From a virus, in the IMG/VR virus record IMGVR_UViG_3300045970_000274, positions 1 to 29,816 of that record: a stretch of DNA of 29,816 nucleotides; one strand, written 5' to 3'. The position numbers and the translations under genes were made by a program. The first letter of the stretch is position 1, and each line of letters begins with the position of its first letter. Positions 5,717-13,245 of the stretch are shown here, in pieces. The notes under the pieces are model-generated. The model was not told the origin of the DNA. It ran no database searches and was given only the letters and a program-made list of their open reading frames with translations.

Positions 5717-5880
5717 TCAGCGCCTCCCGAGGCGAGGTATCCGGCGGCGATGAGCAGGACGCCGGTGACGGCGAGCGCGACGCCGAGGCCGAACAGGACG
5801 AAGGCGCCCGCACAGATGAGCAGTCCGCCGGCGATCTCCGCCAGCGTGGTCCACAGGTCGCGTGATGCCAGTCGCCTCAC
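5713..5880 (-). CDS. Small two-span membrane protein between terminase and portal
   Basis: A 55-aa ORF starting at GTG 5880-5878, which overlaps the large terminase stop (GTGA), and ending by ATGA overlap with the portal start. The N-terminus is basic (MRRLASRDLW) and is followed by two hydrophobic stretches (residues about 17-32 and 33-49, Gly/Ala/Val/Leu-rich) with no charge between, consistent with one hairpin or two short membrane helices. Tight coupling at both ends makes it very likely to be a real gene. No function is recognised; possible roles are docking of packaging or head assembly at the membrane, or an unrelated host-takeover role. Confidence 0.75.
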   Translation of the reverse strand: MRRLASRDLWTTLAEIAGGLLICAGAFVLFGLGVALAVTGVLLIAAGYLASGGAE

Positions 5881-7349
5881 TCGTCCTCCTCAGCCCACGG
5901 GTCGATGATCTGCGGCGTGCGTCCCTGCTCGGCGAGGAACGCCCACAGGGCCATGACGATCGCCACCAGTCCGGCGATGTCGGTCGGTGACTTCTTGCGG
6001 TCCAGCGCCCACGCATCCCCCAGCGGACGGGACACCGCGGTCGACACGGCCATCTCGATGTCGGGCTGGATGGTGTGCCGGACGGACATGGTCGTGACGG
6101 CGTCGAAGAATGAGCCGCACGCCTTCGTGATGTCGCCCCCGTTGAGCGGCAGGACGGGGACGCCGAGCCGGTTCAGGTCGTCGAGCAGGCTCGAGGCGGG
6201 TGCCCCGGACCCCTGCACCGCGACGATCAGCGGCCGGCGGCGGGCCGTGGAGTCCGCGAGCCAGCGGCACACGTCCGACGGGTCCATCGTCGCGATCTCC
6301 TGCACGTGCCACAGGCCGTCCGGTCGGGCGCCGGCGACGGACACGTGGGCCACGGAGCGGTCCCAGGACACGTCGACGGCGAGCGCGAACGGGTCCTCGG
6401 GTCCGAGGGTGGACTCCTCGTCGAGGCACTGCGCCCACTTCAGGGCGGGCAGCGCGGTCGGGGTGACCCGCTCCACCCACTGGCACAGCACCTCGGTGCG
6501 GAAGATCGCCTCCGGGTCGGACTCGCAGGCCGCCCGGACCGCCTCGTCGTCCAGGTCCGTCCATCCCATCGACGGGTTCGCCTGCACCCAGCCGTCCGGG
6601 TCATGGATGTCGCAGCCGTCGGGAGCGGAGTACTCGAAGAGCCCGATACGGGAGTCGGTGTTGCCCTCCTCGATGGCGAGGATGCCGAGGTCTCGCTGGT
6701 GGGAGAGGACGACGGACTGCATGTCGCCCGCGTTGGACAGGCACACGACGAGGGCATCCTTGCGGGCCATCGTCGTCTTCGTGATCGCCGCCCAGGCGTC
6801 CCACGTCTGATGCTCGCGCAGCTCGTCGAGGACCACGAGGTCACCGGTCAGGCCGCGACCGCCGCGCCTGGAGGCGGCGGCGACCTTGTAGCGGGGGCCG
6901 GACTGCAGGCACAGGGCCTTCTTGCCGTTCGTCCGGTTGACCGAGGCGATCTCGGAGGCGAGGTCGGGGATGCCCTCCGCGAGGTCCACGGAGCCCTGCC
7001 AGCACTCCTCCGCGACGTCGAGGTTCTGCGCGGTGCCGAGCACCAGCTGCGCGCCGTCGACGTACAGCGCCCACAGGGACAGGATCTGCACCCACAGGGT
7101 CTTGCCGTTCTGGCGGGCGATGAGGATGACCAGGGTGCGGAACCGGTAGCGGCCGGTCGGCAGCAGCTCGAGGGCGTGGATGTACAGCCACTTCTGCCAC
7201 GGCGTCAGCGTGATGCCGAGGATCTCCTCCGCGAAGGCGATCACCTCGAACCCGCGGGTCGTGTCCGGGGTCAGGTCGCGCAGCGGCGGGGTGAAGATCC
7301 GGGGCTGCTCGCGTCCCAGCAGCGGCGGGCTAGCCAGCAGTGCCGGCAC
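5877..7349 (-). CDS. terL: Terminase large subunit
   Basis: 490-aa packaging ATPase/nuclease. The N-terminal ATPase domain holds TPWQKWLYIHALEL (adenine-side motif), Walker A ARQNGKT (78-84), and Walker B LVVLDE (171-176, catalytic Glu176) followed by LREHQTWDAW. The C-terminal nuclease domain begins around FALAVDVSWDRS (near residue 345) with further acidic positions downstream. It drives DNA into the prohead and cuts the genome ends. The start is GTG 7349, overlapping the end of the small subunit gene by 20 nt; this keeps the conserved region complete and matches usual length. Confidence 0.95.
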   Translation of the reverse strand: MPALLASPPLLGREQPRIFTPPLRDLTPDTTRGFEVIAFAEEILGITLTPWQKWLYIHALELLPTGRYRFRTLVILIARQNGKTLWVQILSLWALYVDGAQLVLGTAQNLDVAEECWQGSVDLAEGIPDLASEIASVNRTNGKKALCLQSGPRYKVAAASRRGGRGLTGDLVVLDELREHQTWDAWAAITKTTMARKDALVVCLSNAGDMQSVVLSHQRDLGILAIEEGNTDSRIGLFEYSAPDGCDIHDPDGWVQANPSMGWTDLDDEAVRAACESDPEAIFRTEVLCQWVERVTPTALPALKWAQCLDEESTLGPEDPFALAVDVSWDRSVAHVSVAGARPDGLWHVQEIATMDPSDVCRWLADSTARRRPLIVAVQGSGAPASSLLDDLNRLGVPVLPLNGGDITKACGSFFDAVTTMSVRHTIQPDIEMAVSTAVSRPLGDAWALDRKKSPTDIAGLVAIVMALWAFLAEQGRTPQIIDPWAEEDE

Positions 7350-9075: not shown

Positions 9076-9299
9076 GGGGTCGGCCCAGAACTCGGATCCG
9101 GGCGTGCTGATGGCCACGTGCATAAGGTGCAGGACGTGCCACGGTCTCCCCCACTGCCGGGGACGAGCTCGCCCTCGGCAAGGCAGTAGAACTCGACGAT
9201 GTCGGTCAGCTGCCTGCTCATCGTGATCTCGCAGGATGTGCACGCCATCCGCTCGATCGCCTGCGGATGATGGCAGATCACGCAGTTCAGAACGGACAC
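9072..9299 (-). CDS. Small zinc-ribbon protein
   Basis: 75-aa ORF with GTG start (9299) after an AGGAGG site; it overlaps the preceding gene by 13 nt and the next by GTGA. CVICHH and CTSCEI (two CxxC pairs 15 residues apart) are followed by a helix (MSRQLTDIVEFYCLAEGEL) and a late CTLC pair. This layout (CxxC, CxxC, then L-x2-I helix) closely resembles the N-terminus of the following 268-aa protein, as if one module had been duplicated. Function not recognised; probably nucleic-acid or protein binding. Confidence 0.65.
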   Translation of the reverse strand: MSVLNCVICHHPQAIERMACTSCEITMSRQLTDIVEFYCLAEGELVPGSGGDRGTSCTLCTWPSARPDPSSGPTP

Positions 9300-9706
9300 G
9301 TGGCTTCCTCCTGGCTGATCGTCTTCGCTGGCGGGGCTGGTGGGCGAGTGATCGCCCAGGTGGCGGGGATGGGCGCGTGGCACTGGTGCTCGGCGAAGAC
9401 GGGTGTGCGTCCGCCGGCGGGGCGCCCGGTGATGGTCCAGTGGTCGCGGCGGTAGAGGCGCTCGGTGGCGAGCTCGTACGTGGTGCGGCCGGCGAGGAGG
9501 GCGTGGACCTCGCCGGCCAGGGTGAGTTCGGCGAGGTCGCACCAGGTGTCGAGTGCGCAGGTGTCGTTGTCGTATCCGGCGAGGGTGGGCAGGTGGCAGG
9601 GCTTGTGGGTGCGGATTCGGGCGGTGCGGGTGAGTCCGCTCTCGCTCATCGCGCCTTTGGCGATGAGCATGTCGGTGAGCCATCGGGGCTGGGTTTGGGT
9701 GGTCAT
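9287..9706 (-). CDS. Conserved-looking early protein of unknown function
   Basis: 139-aa ORF; ATG 9706 overlaps the stop of the small repeat ORF upstream (ATGA). Its pattern (TARIRTHKPC, LAGYDNDTCALDTWCDLAEL, LLAGRTTYELATERLYRRDHW, then GRPAGGRTPVFAEHQC) resembles a protein often found in actinophage replication regions, by my recollection of the pattern rather than by search. The spaced Cys and His residues suggest metal binding. No reaction can be assigned. It follows the candidate origin and the prim-pol/helicase gene, so a replication-linked role is possible. Confidence 0.65.
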   Translation of the reverse strand: MTTQTQPRWLTDMLIAKGAMSESGLTRTARIRTHKPCHLPTLAGYDNDTCALDTWCDLAELTLAGEVHALLAGRTTYELATERLYRRDHWTITGRPAGGRTPVFAEHQCHAPIPATWAITRPPAPPAKTISQEEATCPF

Positions 9707-9912
9707 CGGGCGCCTTTGGGAATCGGTCGGGGACGACGTCGTCCCGCGTTTCGGGGACGAGGTCGTGGGGCTTCGTTGACCTCGTCCCTGCCCCGTAGGG
9801 GAGGGGGCAGGGGGGACGAGGTCAGAACACGGTCTGCCGGGGGTGTCAAAATGTCCGTTTGGGACGAGGTGGGGACGAGGTCGGGGACGAGGTCAGGGAC
9901 GAGGTCGCTCAT
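9703..9912 (-). CDS. Small repeat-containing ORF overlapping the iteron array
   Basis: 69-aa ORF joined to its neighbours by ATGA overlaps at both ends, which argues for translation. The N-terminus is MSDLVPDLVPDLVPTSS: the DLVP repeats are the direct reading of a 12-bp DNA repeat. The C-terminal half is basic and Pro/Arg-rich (RPRPRNAGRRRPRPIPKGAR). The composition is unlike a normal folded protein. The DNA repeats may be the true selected feature, with the ORF merely keeping ribosomes moving, as origins inside genes do in some phages. Confidence 0.45.
   Translation of the reverse strand: MSDLVPDLVPDLVPTSSQTDILTPPADRVLTSSPLPPPLRGRDEVNEAPRPRPRNAGRRRPRPIPKGAR
9730..9906. repeat. Iteron-like array of GGGACGAGGTC: candidate replication origin
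   Basis: The 11-mer GGGACGAGGTC occurs at 9754, 9813, 9872, 9884 and 9896, with one last-base variant at 9861 and one inverted copy at 9778-9788. The last four are spaced 11, 12 and 12 bp apart. A perfect 16-bp palindrome of the same half-site (GGGACGACGTCGTCCC) is at 9730-9745. A short AT-richer patch (9845-9860) lies inside. The array is next to the prim-pol/helicase gene and a DnaA box, which is the usual layout of an iteron origin. It could instead be an operator array. Confidence 0.65.
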
Positions 9913-12002
9913 GAGTTATCCACAGGGTCGTTGTCGTCTGTGAACGGGCGGTCGAGAACGTGGATGAGTGCCCCTCGCGGCCCCGTCTGGCGCTTGACGT
10001 ACCCCTCGGCGACGAGCGCATCGATGGCCTTGCGAACATGCACGGCTTTCCCCTCGATCGCGTCCTCGATGGCCTTCTTCGACGCCCCTTTCGGGAGGTC
10101 GGCGAGAAGGTCGGACACCTTCTGCATGTAGTGGGTGGGCCGCCAGGGGCCTCTCTCAGCGGCGGGGCGCAGGTCGGGTGCGTCGATCTGGATGCGGACG
10201 GTTCCGTCGTCGTGGGAGGTCAGGACGGCCTCTCCGGCGTATCTGGCGCCGCCGCTGATCTCGCGGACGTGCCCAGGTCGGTCCTTGTCGACGGTGAGGC
10301 GGAGCCGGCCGGTCATGCCGCGTCCGAAGGGTGAGGTGATTTCGATGGTGAGGGCGCATCCGGTGGTCATGGCGCGCTTGGCCTGGGCGCCGATGCCGCC
10401 CTTGCCGCGCTGGTCCTTGTTCTTGGGGACGTGGTCGACGTAGGCGACGGCTGCACCGGTGCGGGCGAGGGGCTTGAGGAGGGTCTGGGAGAAGCGGGTG
10501 GCGTCGGTGTTGGAGTTGAGGTCGAGGCCGAGGAGGGTCATGGCTGCGTTGAATCCGTCGAGGATGACGAGTGCGGGGGTGTGGGTGGTCAGGGTTTCGG
10601 TGAGGTCGAGGGTGGCGGTGGCGTGGAGTGATTCGTCGGGTGCGATGTAGGTCAGGTGCGCCAGGTGGGTGTCGGTTGCGCCGAGGGCGCGGAGCCGGCT
10701 GATGATGCCTGCTGCGGTGTCCTCGAAGTCGAGGTAGAGGACGTGCTGGGCAGTGGTGATGGCTTGGAGGACGGCGAGGAGCGCGATCCAGGTCTTGCCG
10801 GATTCGGATTCGCCGATGAGGCCGTTGACCTTGCCGGGGTACAGGAGGCGGTGGCCGTCCTGGCGGGCGAGGAACGCGGGGTGGGGTTCGGGGTCGTCTC
10901 CGGCGATGACGGCGACCAGGTTGCGTGGCCACCAGCTGGTGTGGTCGCGTTCGCCGGGGTCGACGTGCTCGAGGTAGTCGGGGGGAAGGTCGTTGGGGGG
11001 CAGGCTGATGGCCCAGATGGTGGCGCCTGTTGTCGTGTCGACGCCGACGGCGGGTGGTGGGGCGATGGGGTGGGTGATGCCCTGGGCGTGGAGCCTGTCG
11101 AGGAGTTCGGGGACGCGATCGGTCTCGGGGGCGGAGAGGTGGGCGGTGCGGCAGGCTGCTTGGAGGGCGGCCTGCCCGGTGGGGCGGTCGAGGCAGCCGC
11201 CGGCGATGGCTCGGGCGATGAGGGGGGCGGCTTCGAGGGCGAGGGCGTTCCACCGTCCCCCTTCACCGGCGCTGGTGATCGCGTCGACGGCGCGGCGGAG
11301 GACGGCCTGCCCGTAGGCGGTCGCGCGGCGGTCGTCGCTGTCGCTGGTGGGTGTGGGGCCGAGGAACGCGGTGGACGGGTTGATGGCGGGTGCAGGCGGC
11401 TGGGTGGGCTGCTGGTGGTCGAGCTGGTCGTACCAGTCGTCCCAGGGGACATCGCCGGTGATGACGCCATCGCCGAGGGGCTGGATCCACATGTAGGGGC
11501 GTCCGGTGACGTGCATGGAGGGTGGGGCGATGACGTACCCGCCGGCGCCCTTGATCTCGACTCCTGGGGGGAGGCCCTTCTTGCCGGAGGGGATGGTCTT
11601 GCGTCCGCCGGGTGAGCAGTAGAGGTGGAAGCCGCCGGTGTCGCGTCCGCTCATGGCGATGGCGTGGTGCTCGGGGGTGCCGTGGAGGGCCGTGTAGTCC
11701 TTCCACGCCTGGGAGGCGCCGTCGATGTCGACGACGTCGAAGGTGTGGCCGGTGGGGATGGCGATGTTGGCGTGGGGCCAGCGTCCCCACCAGCCGCGGA
11801 TGGTGTCCTCGTCGAGGGTGGCGTCGTGGAGGCCGTTCGTGGTGAGGGGGTGCTTGGCGGGGCTGTGGCAGTCGCGTTGGGGGCAGGCGCAGTGTCCGTC
11901 GATGGGCCACCAGGTGGGGAAGACGGGTTGTCCTTGCCGGGCCCACCAGAGGGCGGCGACGAGCATGGAGGGGGTGGTGTCGGGGGCCGCGGCCATGGTC
12001 AC
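9909..12002 (-). CDS. Prim-pol / RepA-like helicase replication protein
   Basis: 697-aa fusion starting at GTG 12002 (GTGA overlap with the CoiA-like gene) or the nearby ATG 11996; the frame is open to 12512, but that stretch is shadowed by the CoiA-like gene. Residues about 10-200 are a bifunctional primase/polymerase domain: CACPQRDC (Cys38/40/45), FDVVDIDG with Asp92 and Asp94, GGFHLYC with His126, then GVEIKGAGGYVIAPPS. Residues about 360-600 are a RecA/RepA-like ATPase: Walker A GESESGKT (397-404), VLYLDFED, Walker B ALVILDGF (Asp482), YVDHVPKN. The C-terminal 80 residues look like a winged helix (KGASKKAIEDAIEGKAVHVR). It likely primes, unwinds and recognises the phage origin. Confidence 0.92.
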   Translation of the reverse strand: MTMAAAPDTTPSMLVAALWWARQGQPVFPTWWPIDGHCACPQRDCHSPAKHPLTTNGLHDATLDEDTIRGWWGRWPHANIAIPTGHTFDVVDIDGASQAWKDYTALHGTPEHHAIAMSGRDTGGFHLYCSPGGRKTIPSGKKGLPPGVEIKGAGGYVIAPPSMHVTGRPYMWIQPLGDGVITGDVPWDDWYDQLDHQQPTQPPAPAINPSTAFLGPTPTSDSDDRRATAYGQAVLRRAVDAITSAGEGGRWNALALEAAPLIARAIAGGCLDRPTGQAALQAACRTAHLSAPETDRVPELLDRLHAQGITHPIAPPPAVGVDTTTGATIWAISLPPNDLPPDYLEHVDPGERDHTSWWPRNLVAVIAGDDPEPHPAFLARQDGHRLLYPGKVNGLIGESESGKTWIALLAVLQAITTAQHVLYLDFEDTAAGIISRLRALGATDTHLAHLTYIAPDESLHATATLDLTETLTTHTPALVILDGFNAAMTLLGLDLNSNTDATRFSQTLLKPLARTGAAVAYVDHVPKNKDQRGKGGIGAQAKRAMTTGCALTIEITSPFGRGMTGRLRLTVDKDRPGHVREISGGARYAGEAVLTSHDDGTVRIQIDAPDLRPAAERGPWRPTHYMQKVSDLLADLPKGASKKAIEDAIEGKAVHVRKAIDALVAEGYVKRQTGPRGALIHVLDRPFTDDNDPVDNS
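9916..9924 (+). promoter_or_regulatory. Consensus DnaA box
   Basis: TTATCCACA, an exact match to the consensus DnaA-binding 9-mer, lies 9 bp from the last iteron, inside the final codons of the prim-pol/helicase gene. In such GC-rich DNA a chance exact match is unlikely, and its position strengthens the origin call. Confidence 0.6.
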
Positions 12003-12607
12003 GCAGCCCTCCATGCGGCGATGTCGGCGACGACGTCGTCGTGGGTCGCGAGGTGTCCGTATCCGCCGTAGGGGGCGCCGGTGTTGTAGAACCGTTGGAT
12101 GACTAGGACGGCGGGTCCGAGGTCGAGGAGGACGCGTCGGGTGCAGCGCAGGATGGAGGTGCGGGGGTGCTTCCAGCGGAAGCTGCGGTAGGTGTCGCCG
12201 GCGGTCGCCTTGGTGCGGAGGTTGAGGCGGTCGGTGTCGTAGGCGTCTCGGGCGTCGAACAGCCAGGCCATGGCGTGTCCGTAGTGGTTTTCGCGTGCGC
12301 GGATGGCGTCGCCGTTGATGGTCGAGTGCTGGACCTCGAGGACAAATCCTTGGGGGGTGCGGATGTCGGCGCGGTGTGCGCCGATGGGGACCTCCTGCCA
12401 GGTGCGGGGGAACTTGTCCTGCCATGCGCGGTGCCAGGCGCTTTCGGGTTCGGCCCAGGTGTCGCAGTCGTTGGCGATGTGCGCCCAGTGCCAGGTGACG
12501 ATGTCGCCGCATTTGGCGCGGACGGGTTCCATACAGTGGGGGCAGATGCCGCGGGCCCGTGGCTCTGCCTGGGCGTTGAGGTCACCTTCATGGATCGCGT
12601 ATCTCAT
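11999..12607 (-). CDS. CoiA-like nuclease
   Basis: 202-aa protein matching the competence CoiA-like family. An N-terminal zinc knuckle (CPHCMEP, Cys22/25, then Cys33 and WHWAH) precedes a PD-(D/E)xK-like core: SAWHRAWQ, EVPIGAHRADI (Asp81), GFVLEVQHS (Glu91, Gln93), then a helix with ARENHYGH and WLFDARDA. ATG 12607 overlaps the J-domain stop (ATGA), and its own stop overlaps the prim-pol start (GTGA). Nuclease activity in recombination is known or suspected for CoiA; in this phage it sits in the replication operon, so a DNA-processing role is inferred. Active-site residues appear intact. Confidence 0.82.
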   Translation of the reverse strand: MRYAIHEGDLNAQAEPRARGICPHCMEPVRAKCGDIVTWHWAHIANDCDTWAEPESAWHRAWQDKFPRTWQEVPIGAHRADIRTPQGFVLEVQHSTINGDAIRARENHYGHAMAWLFDARDAYDTDRLNLRTKATAGDTYRSFRWKHPRTSILRCTRRVLLDLGPAVLVIQRFYNTGAPYGGYGHLATHDDVVADIAAWRAA

Positions 12608-13245
12608 GAATCGTCTCGCGTGGCTTCGAGTACGCGTGCGGCTTCTTCCACCTGATCCCATTGGACACGATGACCGTTGTTCCGATCCGGGTGTGCCAAC
12701 GCCTTCGCGCGGCGGATTGCACGCGGTAGGTCAGCGTTCACGTCGCTATGGCTGGCGTTCAGGATTGCGGCGAGAACGCCGATCGCCTCCAAGGGGCTCG
12801 GCGGCTCGGGAGCACCGCCTATCGCCTTCCAACCCGTGTACTGCTCCCCCCGCTTCGTCACCCCGTAGCGGTCCACCTTCCGCAGCGCCTCCAGCGACAG
12901 GGCGATCGCGTAAACGTTGTGCTGCCAGTCTTGCTGCATCTTCGACCCGTAGGGGCGGTGAACGAAGCGGTCCGTCGCCATGATGATCGGACCGAACTTC
13001 GACTCGAACGCGATCCGCGCCCCCGGGCTGGAGGCCGCAGCGCCGCTTCGGATCATTCCGTCGTTGCGGATCTGGTCCTCGCGCACGTCCACCTCGATGA
13101 CAAGCCGCTCCCCATCGAGGAAGTCGTACTCCCGTTCGAGGAGGTCGAGAACGGTCGTCCAAGTCACCATGAACTGGGAGAACACGCGCTCGCCGCCGAA
13201 CGCGTGGCGGTCGCTGATCGGTCGTGTCGTGTAGATGAGGGTCAC
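12604..13245 (-). CDS. J-domain-containing protein of mobile-element type
   Basis: 213 aa from GTG 13245. The C-terminus holds a J-domain core: RAIRRAKALAHPDRN with HPD at 185-187, followed by a helix (QVEEAARVLEATR). The larger N-terminal part (LIYTTRPISDRH, TVLDLLEREYDFL, then YAIALSLEALRKVDRYGV and RGEQYTGWKAI) is the arrangement seen in proteins of actinobacterial phages and integrative elements. J-domains activate Hsp70 (DnaK), so recruitment of host DnaK to the replication complex, as lambda does with DnaJ, is plausible. A 56-nt gap with a 6-bp hairpin (13253-13271) precedes the start; another in-frame GTG near 13284 is possible. Confidence 0.8.
   Translation of the reverse strand: MTLIYTTRPISDRHAFGGERVFSQFMVTWTTVLDLLEREYDFLDGERLVIEVDVREDQIRNDGMIRSGAAASSPGARIAFESKFGPIIMATDRFVHRPYGSKMQQDWQHNVYAIALSLEALRKVDRYGVTKRGEQYTGWKAIGGAPEPPSPLEAIGVLAAILNASHSDVNADLPRAIRRAKALAHPDRNNGHRVQWDQVEEAARVLEATRDDS

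Follow-up and report, generated by a model that had tools for sequence, protein, structure and literature searches.

The array of short repeats, or iterons, that lies directly behind a primase-helicase gene in the window can with good confidence be read, on the sequence evidence, as the cognate binding site for the product of the preceding gene, and most likely as the replication origin of a phage. The window, which is the whole stretch of DNA analysed here, is a virus record of IMG/VR with a length of 29,816 bases, and its source, judged by integrase and repressor-like genes, would be a temperate phage.

The iteron array and its helicase gene

The gene (9909–11996, minus strand, with its stop codon at 9909–9911) encodes a protein of 695 amino acids, in which Pfam and the translation reveal a Prim-Pol domain (PF09250, E = 1.5e-32), and a RecA-type AAA_25 helicase domain (PF13481, E = 3.1e-16), and which has a predicted C-terminal winged helix. 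By their domains, the members of this family would be primase-helicases or helicases, and the solved structures related to the helicase are those of RecA, RAD51 and KaiC proteins. The gene before it (11999–12661, minus strand) matches the N-terminal domain of CoiA (Pfam PF25164, E = 2.4e-8). The next gene (9287–9706, minus strand; phrog_16156, E = 1.2e-9) is not conserved across relatives.

The array (9730–9906) lies in the 202-bp gap between these co-directional genes (9707–9908). It comprises a near-copy and six exact copies, one of them inverted, of the 11-mer GGGACGAGGTC, whose half-site also forms a palindrome of 16 bp, GGGACGACGTCGTCCC (9730–9745). The copies are located at 9754–9764 (plus strand), 9778–9788 (inverted, minus strand), 9813–9823, 9861–9871 (with a changed last base, ending in G), 9872–9882, 9884–9894 and 9896–9906 (all plus strand), the last of which lies 2 bp from the stop codon of the helicase gene. 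An earlier note on this DNA had described seven copies, one inverted and one with a last-base change, plus the palindrome within 177 bp, four copies at 11–12-bp spacing and a position directly behind the prim-pol/helicase gene, and all of this was confirmed on recounting: the four copies start at 9861, 9872, 9884 and 9896, and the array begins 2 bp past the stop codon. The note had also asked whether the 11-mer is absent elsewhere, and no exact GGGACGAGGTC is found in the rest of the 29.8-kb contig. Outside the array region, copies with one mismatch occur only at 2999, 9160, 10426 and 21192, and when the window was simulated 40 times with a Markov model, no 11-mer exceeded three occurrences per 180 bp, against the six observed. 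The window array thus has what marks an iteron origin, short direct repeats clustered at a single site of the replicon.

An inverted-repeat search and a DNA fold both reveal a hairpin at 9777–9824, whose arms are the iterons at 9778–9788 (left) and 9813–9823 (right), which form a perfect 12-bp inverted pair with further pairs inside. The fold of 9707–9930 has an energy of −48.9 kcal/mol (z = −3.2). The array has no pronounced AT-rich stretch for unwinding, 9890–9960 being mildly AT-rich. Scans for Rfam families, tRNAs, promoters and terminators gave nothing relevant, and in the array gap no sigma-70-type promoter was matched by a scan that covers actinobacterial promoters poorly. An exact search with the window's own tandem iteron pair matched no other contig.

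Conservation of the array in relatives

Relatives were collected in two ways, starting from the DNA or from the protein. A scan of IMG/VR for two adjacent 9-mers (pattern CCTCGTCCCN{0,6}CCTCGTCCC) retrieved at least 119 stretches, and among the matches listed most loci with dense arrays encode a relative of the C-terminal half of the window protein. The same matches include 28 loci of the helicase family, mostly 30–55% identical to the window protein, and in 27 of them the first downstream copy of the 9-mer lies 0–53 nt past the helicase stop codon; in the remaining one, L106, the array is within the helicase reading frame. In Microcystis phage MinS1, with 41% identity over the C-terminal half, this repeat is found 17 nt behind the ATPase gene. 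Dense arrays without a helicase gene are also present (L025, L029, L039, L051, L061, L070, L090 and L121), several of which have periods of 7 or 12 bp, as would be expected of other repeats. A check of 11 records showed a single cluster of the 9-mers, apart from isolated copies here and there, and in two records with other iterons the 9-mers are found once or not at all.

The protein-first search comprised the best 80 of 492 IMG/VR relatives and 70 relatives from bacterial genomes, nearly all of the latter titled as actinobacteria. An array was counted when an exact 8-mer recurred at least four times per 300 bp at the 3′ end of the gene, more often than in any control window of the same locus, which was the case in 130 of 150 loci (a set that was not de-duplicated and includes five earlier seeds), while 20 loci fell short. 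Two further scans contributed 32 new non-redundant loci, less than 85% identical to the first set, of which 25 carry an array. The expectation that relatives with the same protein keep the array was therefore borne out, and its location beside the putative initiator gene, conserved among relatives, is again that of an iteron origin. Spacing between iterons in the relatives peaks at 10–11 bp, and in 68 of 80 of their arrays neighbouring iterons of opposite orientation lie no more than 45 bp apart, comparable to the hairpin at 9777–9824. The carriers of gene and array are phages, prophages and two actinobacterial plasmids.

At L130–L133, L135, L212, L213 and L281 the helicase reading frame contains the array, and translation would turn the origin-like repeats into a C-terminal tail of the protein.

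An array in a gap between co-directional genes, which could repress when bound, might instead be an operator and not the start of replication, with the winged helix bound there to control how the next gene, or its own operon, is transcribed. We regard this as improbable: the array is found behind the helicase gene whatever lies downstream, and no conserved downstream gene, as expected of an operator, is common to the relatives, the largest shared family being present at 20 of 86 loci. Since there is no second cluster elsewhere in the searched records, self-repression at the promoter is unlikely there, and an array inside the helicase reading frame, as in some relatives, also argues against an operator. 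An origin bound by the helicase is thus preferred, and it is further addressed by the sequence of the iterons themselves.

Iteron sequence and the winged helix

A structure of the C-terminal part predicted by AlphaFold (75-sequence alignment; 341 residues, residue 1 corresponding to 355; mean pLDDT 94.1) consists of a RecA-type domain followed by a winged helix-turn-helix (HTH) at residues 621–681 (9954–10136, minus strand), which is built of helices 267–278, 286–292 and 297–309 in model numbering plus two wing strands. Covariation and the model together place the second HTH helix at residues 640–646 (10059–10079, minus strand), with K641 and E644, and the recognition helix at residues 651–663 (10008–10046, minus strand), with A651, V654 and R655.

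Iterons vary by clade, with ACCTCGTCCC, as at L147, ACCCTTTCCC, as at L155, CCTCGCCCC, CGTGTCCC, CGTTCCCC, GTGGTTCCC and ACTTGACCGAC among the forms found, and so does the N-terminal domain of the relatives, which is Prim-Pol, DnaB-N (MinS1, L024, L069) or neither, as far as detected. The iteron core CTCGTCC is seen with all three, at 11, 7 and 7 non-redundant loci, respectively. Over 90 non-redundant loci, a partial Mantel test that corrects for the helicase core gives the iteron a correlation of 0.29 with the winged helix (P = 0.001), and the reverse test, which corrects for the winged helix, gives it one of 0.05 with the helicase core (P = 0.16). Iteron sequence goes with the predicted C-terminal winged helix rather than with the rest of the protein, helicase core and N-terminal domain alike.

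Covariation between single residues and bases was evaluated by shuffling the iterons only within clusters of similar helicase cores, which partly removes relatedness. The top pairs are R655 with G6 (z = 11) and E644 with C5 (z = 10), followed by the residues K641, A651, V654 and K650, all of which lie in or beside the second and third HTH helices. Arginine at 655 accompanies G6 in 46 of 56 loci (lysine in 4) and T6 in 1 of 25, and glutamate at 644 accompanies C5 in 36 of 48 loci and other bases in 2 of 37. In the new loci with arrays, the E644–C5 rule recurs (11 of 15 against 1 of 10, Fisher P = 0.0036), and the R655–G6 rule keeps its direction without reaching significance (14 of 19 against 2 of 6, P = 0.14). 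The CGTGTCCC class combines R644 with D655, so the code between residues and bases is not universal; a correspondence exists, but a partial one. That the C-terminal winged helix reads the array, as the earlier note had tentatively proposed, is favoured by the predicted fold and by the covariation of HTH residues with the iteron, with one of two rules significant out of sample.

The same covariation bears on the reading of the array as a centromere-like partition site, a packaging site or a chance expansion of repeats. Partition and packaging sites also hold repeat arrays with inverted copies, but the covariation of the iterons with HTH residues of the helicase encoded next to them makes these readings very unlikely. 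Moreover, the ParA-like gene of plasmid pKRAD02 (9484–10275) is far from its array, and in the window the putative large terminase, an ORF at 5877–7349 assigned from its sequence, is not adjacent to the array either. The origin bound by its own helicase is again the better account.

The DnaA box

An exact DnaA-box 9-mer, TTATCCACA (9916–9924, plus strand), the only exact match in the window, lies 9 bp past the last iteron. The earlier note was right about the match and the distance, but the box falls in the final codons of the helicase gene. Exact boxes are enriched near arrays, with 6 within 150 bp of them (about 58 kb) compared with 4 in about 960 kb elsewhere, and those near arrays have differing positions and orientations around the gene end. 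At the helicase 3′ end, exact TTATCCACA is also found in L007 (6900–6908) and L106 (near 1529), in frames or orientations unlike those of the window, which suggests that selection on this 9-mer acts on DNA rather than on protein.

Enrichment, together with the box beside the array, would fit a DnaA-dependent origin at which host DnaA initiates and the repeats are auxiliary. An oriC-like DnaA complex needs more than a single box, and an oriC-type origin has several; the window array has one exact box nearby. As the box is present in only about 5 of some 134 array loci, such an origin has very little probability, and the box, which had been taken for a part of the arrangement, is an optional addition at most. 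The iterons bound by the helicase would then form the origin core.

Arrays in named phages and plasmids

In the plasmid p-XQ-29-C (7.9 kb, L286), an array of CCTGCCC starts at the stop codon of the helicase-family gene, and in pKRAD02, a circular plasmid of 12.9 kb, an array of GTGGTTCC occupies part of the last 200 bp of the gene (1816–1974). No other obvious replication gene is seen in the gene tables of the two plasmids, which are incomplete, and gene plus array on both is suggestive of autonomous replication. p-XQ-29-C combines the AAA_25 gene and iteron array with an FtsK/SpoIIIE gene and resembles integrative conjugative elements of actinobacteria that carry Prim-Pol/RepPP modules; Prim-Pol was not detected in the plasmid.

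Phage Dagobah has nine copies of ACCGGTTC at the end of its helicase-family gene. These palindromic iterons, of the GAACCGGTTC type (L284:3560–3690), close the AAA_25 gene and are followed by a hairpin. In the phage genome this gene end lies at 38.5–38.7 kb, and Dagobah is culturable, with Streptomyces coelicolor M600 as a host. Phage Hendrix has three weak iteron copies and a DnaA-box-like site, and in the cultured phage Zuko no array was found at the helicase-family gene.

GC skew, which the earlier note had named as a check on the origin, was computed for MinS1 and pKRAD02, the window being a fragment, and does not single out the array: the extremes are at 5.2 and 33.9 kb in MinS1 (array at 0.3–0.5 kb) and at 3.2 and 7.2 kb in pKRAD02 (array at 1.8–2.0 kb).

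The record of MinS1 (L279, MZ923504.1) names it a phage of Microcystis, but a GC content of 71.7% and an Lsr2-family gene are what actinobacterial phages would show, and the host assignment may deserve checking. The annotated hypothetical protein UIU47017.1 spans the MinS1 iteron array (L279:297–491) and is probably not a gene.

Proposed mechanism and significance

We infer that copies of the Prim-Pol/helicase would dock on iterons spaced by 10–12 bp via their C-terminal winged helices, with the iteron centre read by E644 in helix 2 and by A651 and R655 in the recognition helix. The assembled RecA-type helicase could then be loaded on DNA, probably with the help of the hairpin of inverted iterons (9777–9824), after which the Prim-Pol domain would prime and a host or phage polymerase would extend. 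The helicase-initiator would in this way open the origin at its own iterons, as is thought for SaPI Rep and SCCmec Cch2.

Beyond the window, we lean towards a widespread, undescribed class of initiator-helicases in actinobacterial phages, prophages and plasmids, in which a RecA-type motor, joined to a winged helix that reads the iterons, is fused to Prim-Pol, to DnaB-N or to nothing. Its origin would be the array at the 3′ end of its own gene, with an iteron partly readable from a few HTH residues, and origin and initiator would diverge together as one exchangeable cassette. Among the open-access papers searched, none was found to describe this arrangement for phages of actinobacteria.

Few environmental phages have a known replication origin, and for a large actinobacterial group the arrangement offers a rule, namely to inspect the 3′ end of the AAA_25–winged-helix gene. 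It also makes more than 100 natural initiator/iteron pairs available for studying how origin specificity changes, and it indicates compact replicons that can be tested in Streptomyces.

Comparison with known systems

One of the closest arrangements is that of SaPI Rep of the Staphylococcus pathogenicity islands, where the iteron origin is just downstream of the helicase gene and is recognised by the C-terminal domain of the helicase (PMC7581432). Iterons directly 3′ of the helicase gene are shared with the window, but the motor here is of the RecA type (AAA_25, KaiC/RAD51 fold) and often fused to Prim-Pol or DnaB-N, and the family is found in actinobacterial phages, prophages and plasmids. In SCCmec, the isolated C-terminal domain of Cch2, a helicase compared with MCM helicases, binds direct repeats 3′ of its gene, and a separate primase-polymerase, CCPol-MP, acts at this repeat site (PMC7581432). 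The position of the repeats is again the same; the AAA_25 domain with its RecA/RAD51/KaiC fold sets the window protein apart from the SaPI Rep/SCC Cch helicase family, its primase and helicase are one protein, and its iterons are longer and more numerous than those of Cch2. The alpha protein of phage P4 is reportedly a primase, helicase and origin-binding protein in one with short iterons, its ori and crr lying apart; the short iterons are alike and the helicase class differs.

RSF1010 likewise has a helicase, a primase and a protein for iteron recognition, but as three separate proteins, RepA, RepB′ and RepC, of which RepC and not the helicase reads the iterons (PMC4234260). The domain composition resembles that of ORF904 of pRN1, which combines Prim-Pol, an SF3 helicase and a winged helix; the stretch directly behind its gene on the 3′ side is essential and contains the proposed origin, a large stem-loop that lacks iterons (PMC4234260). 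The window shares the Prim-Pol domain, the winged helix and a stem-loop downstream of the gene, its hairpin being smaller, and differs in having AAA_25 in place of SF3 and an iteron array. Which motif this similarly built protein binds was not settled in the work on pRN1 (PMC4234260), and an equivalent motif can be named here.
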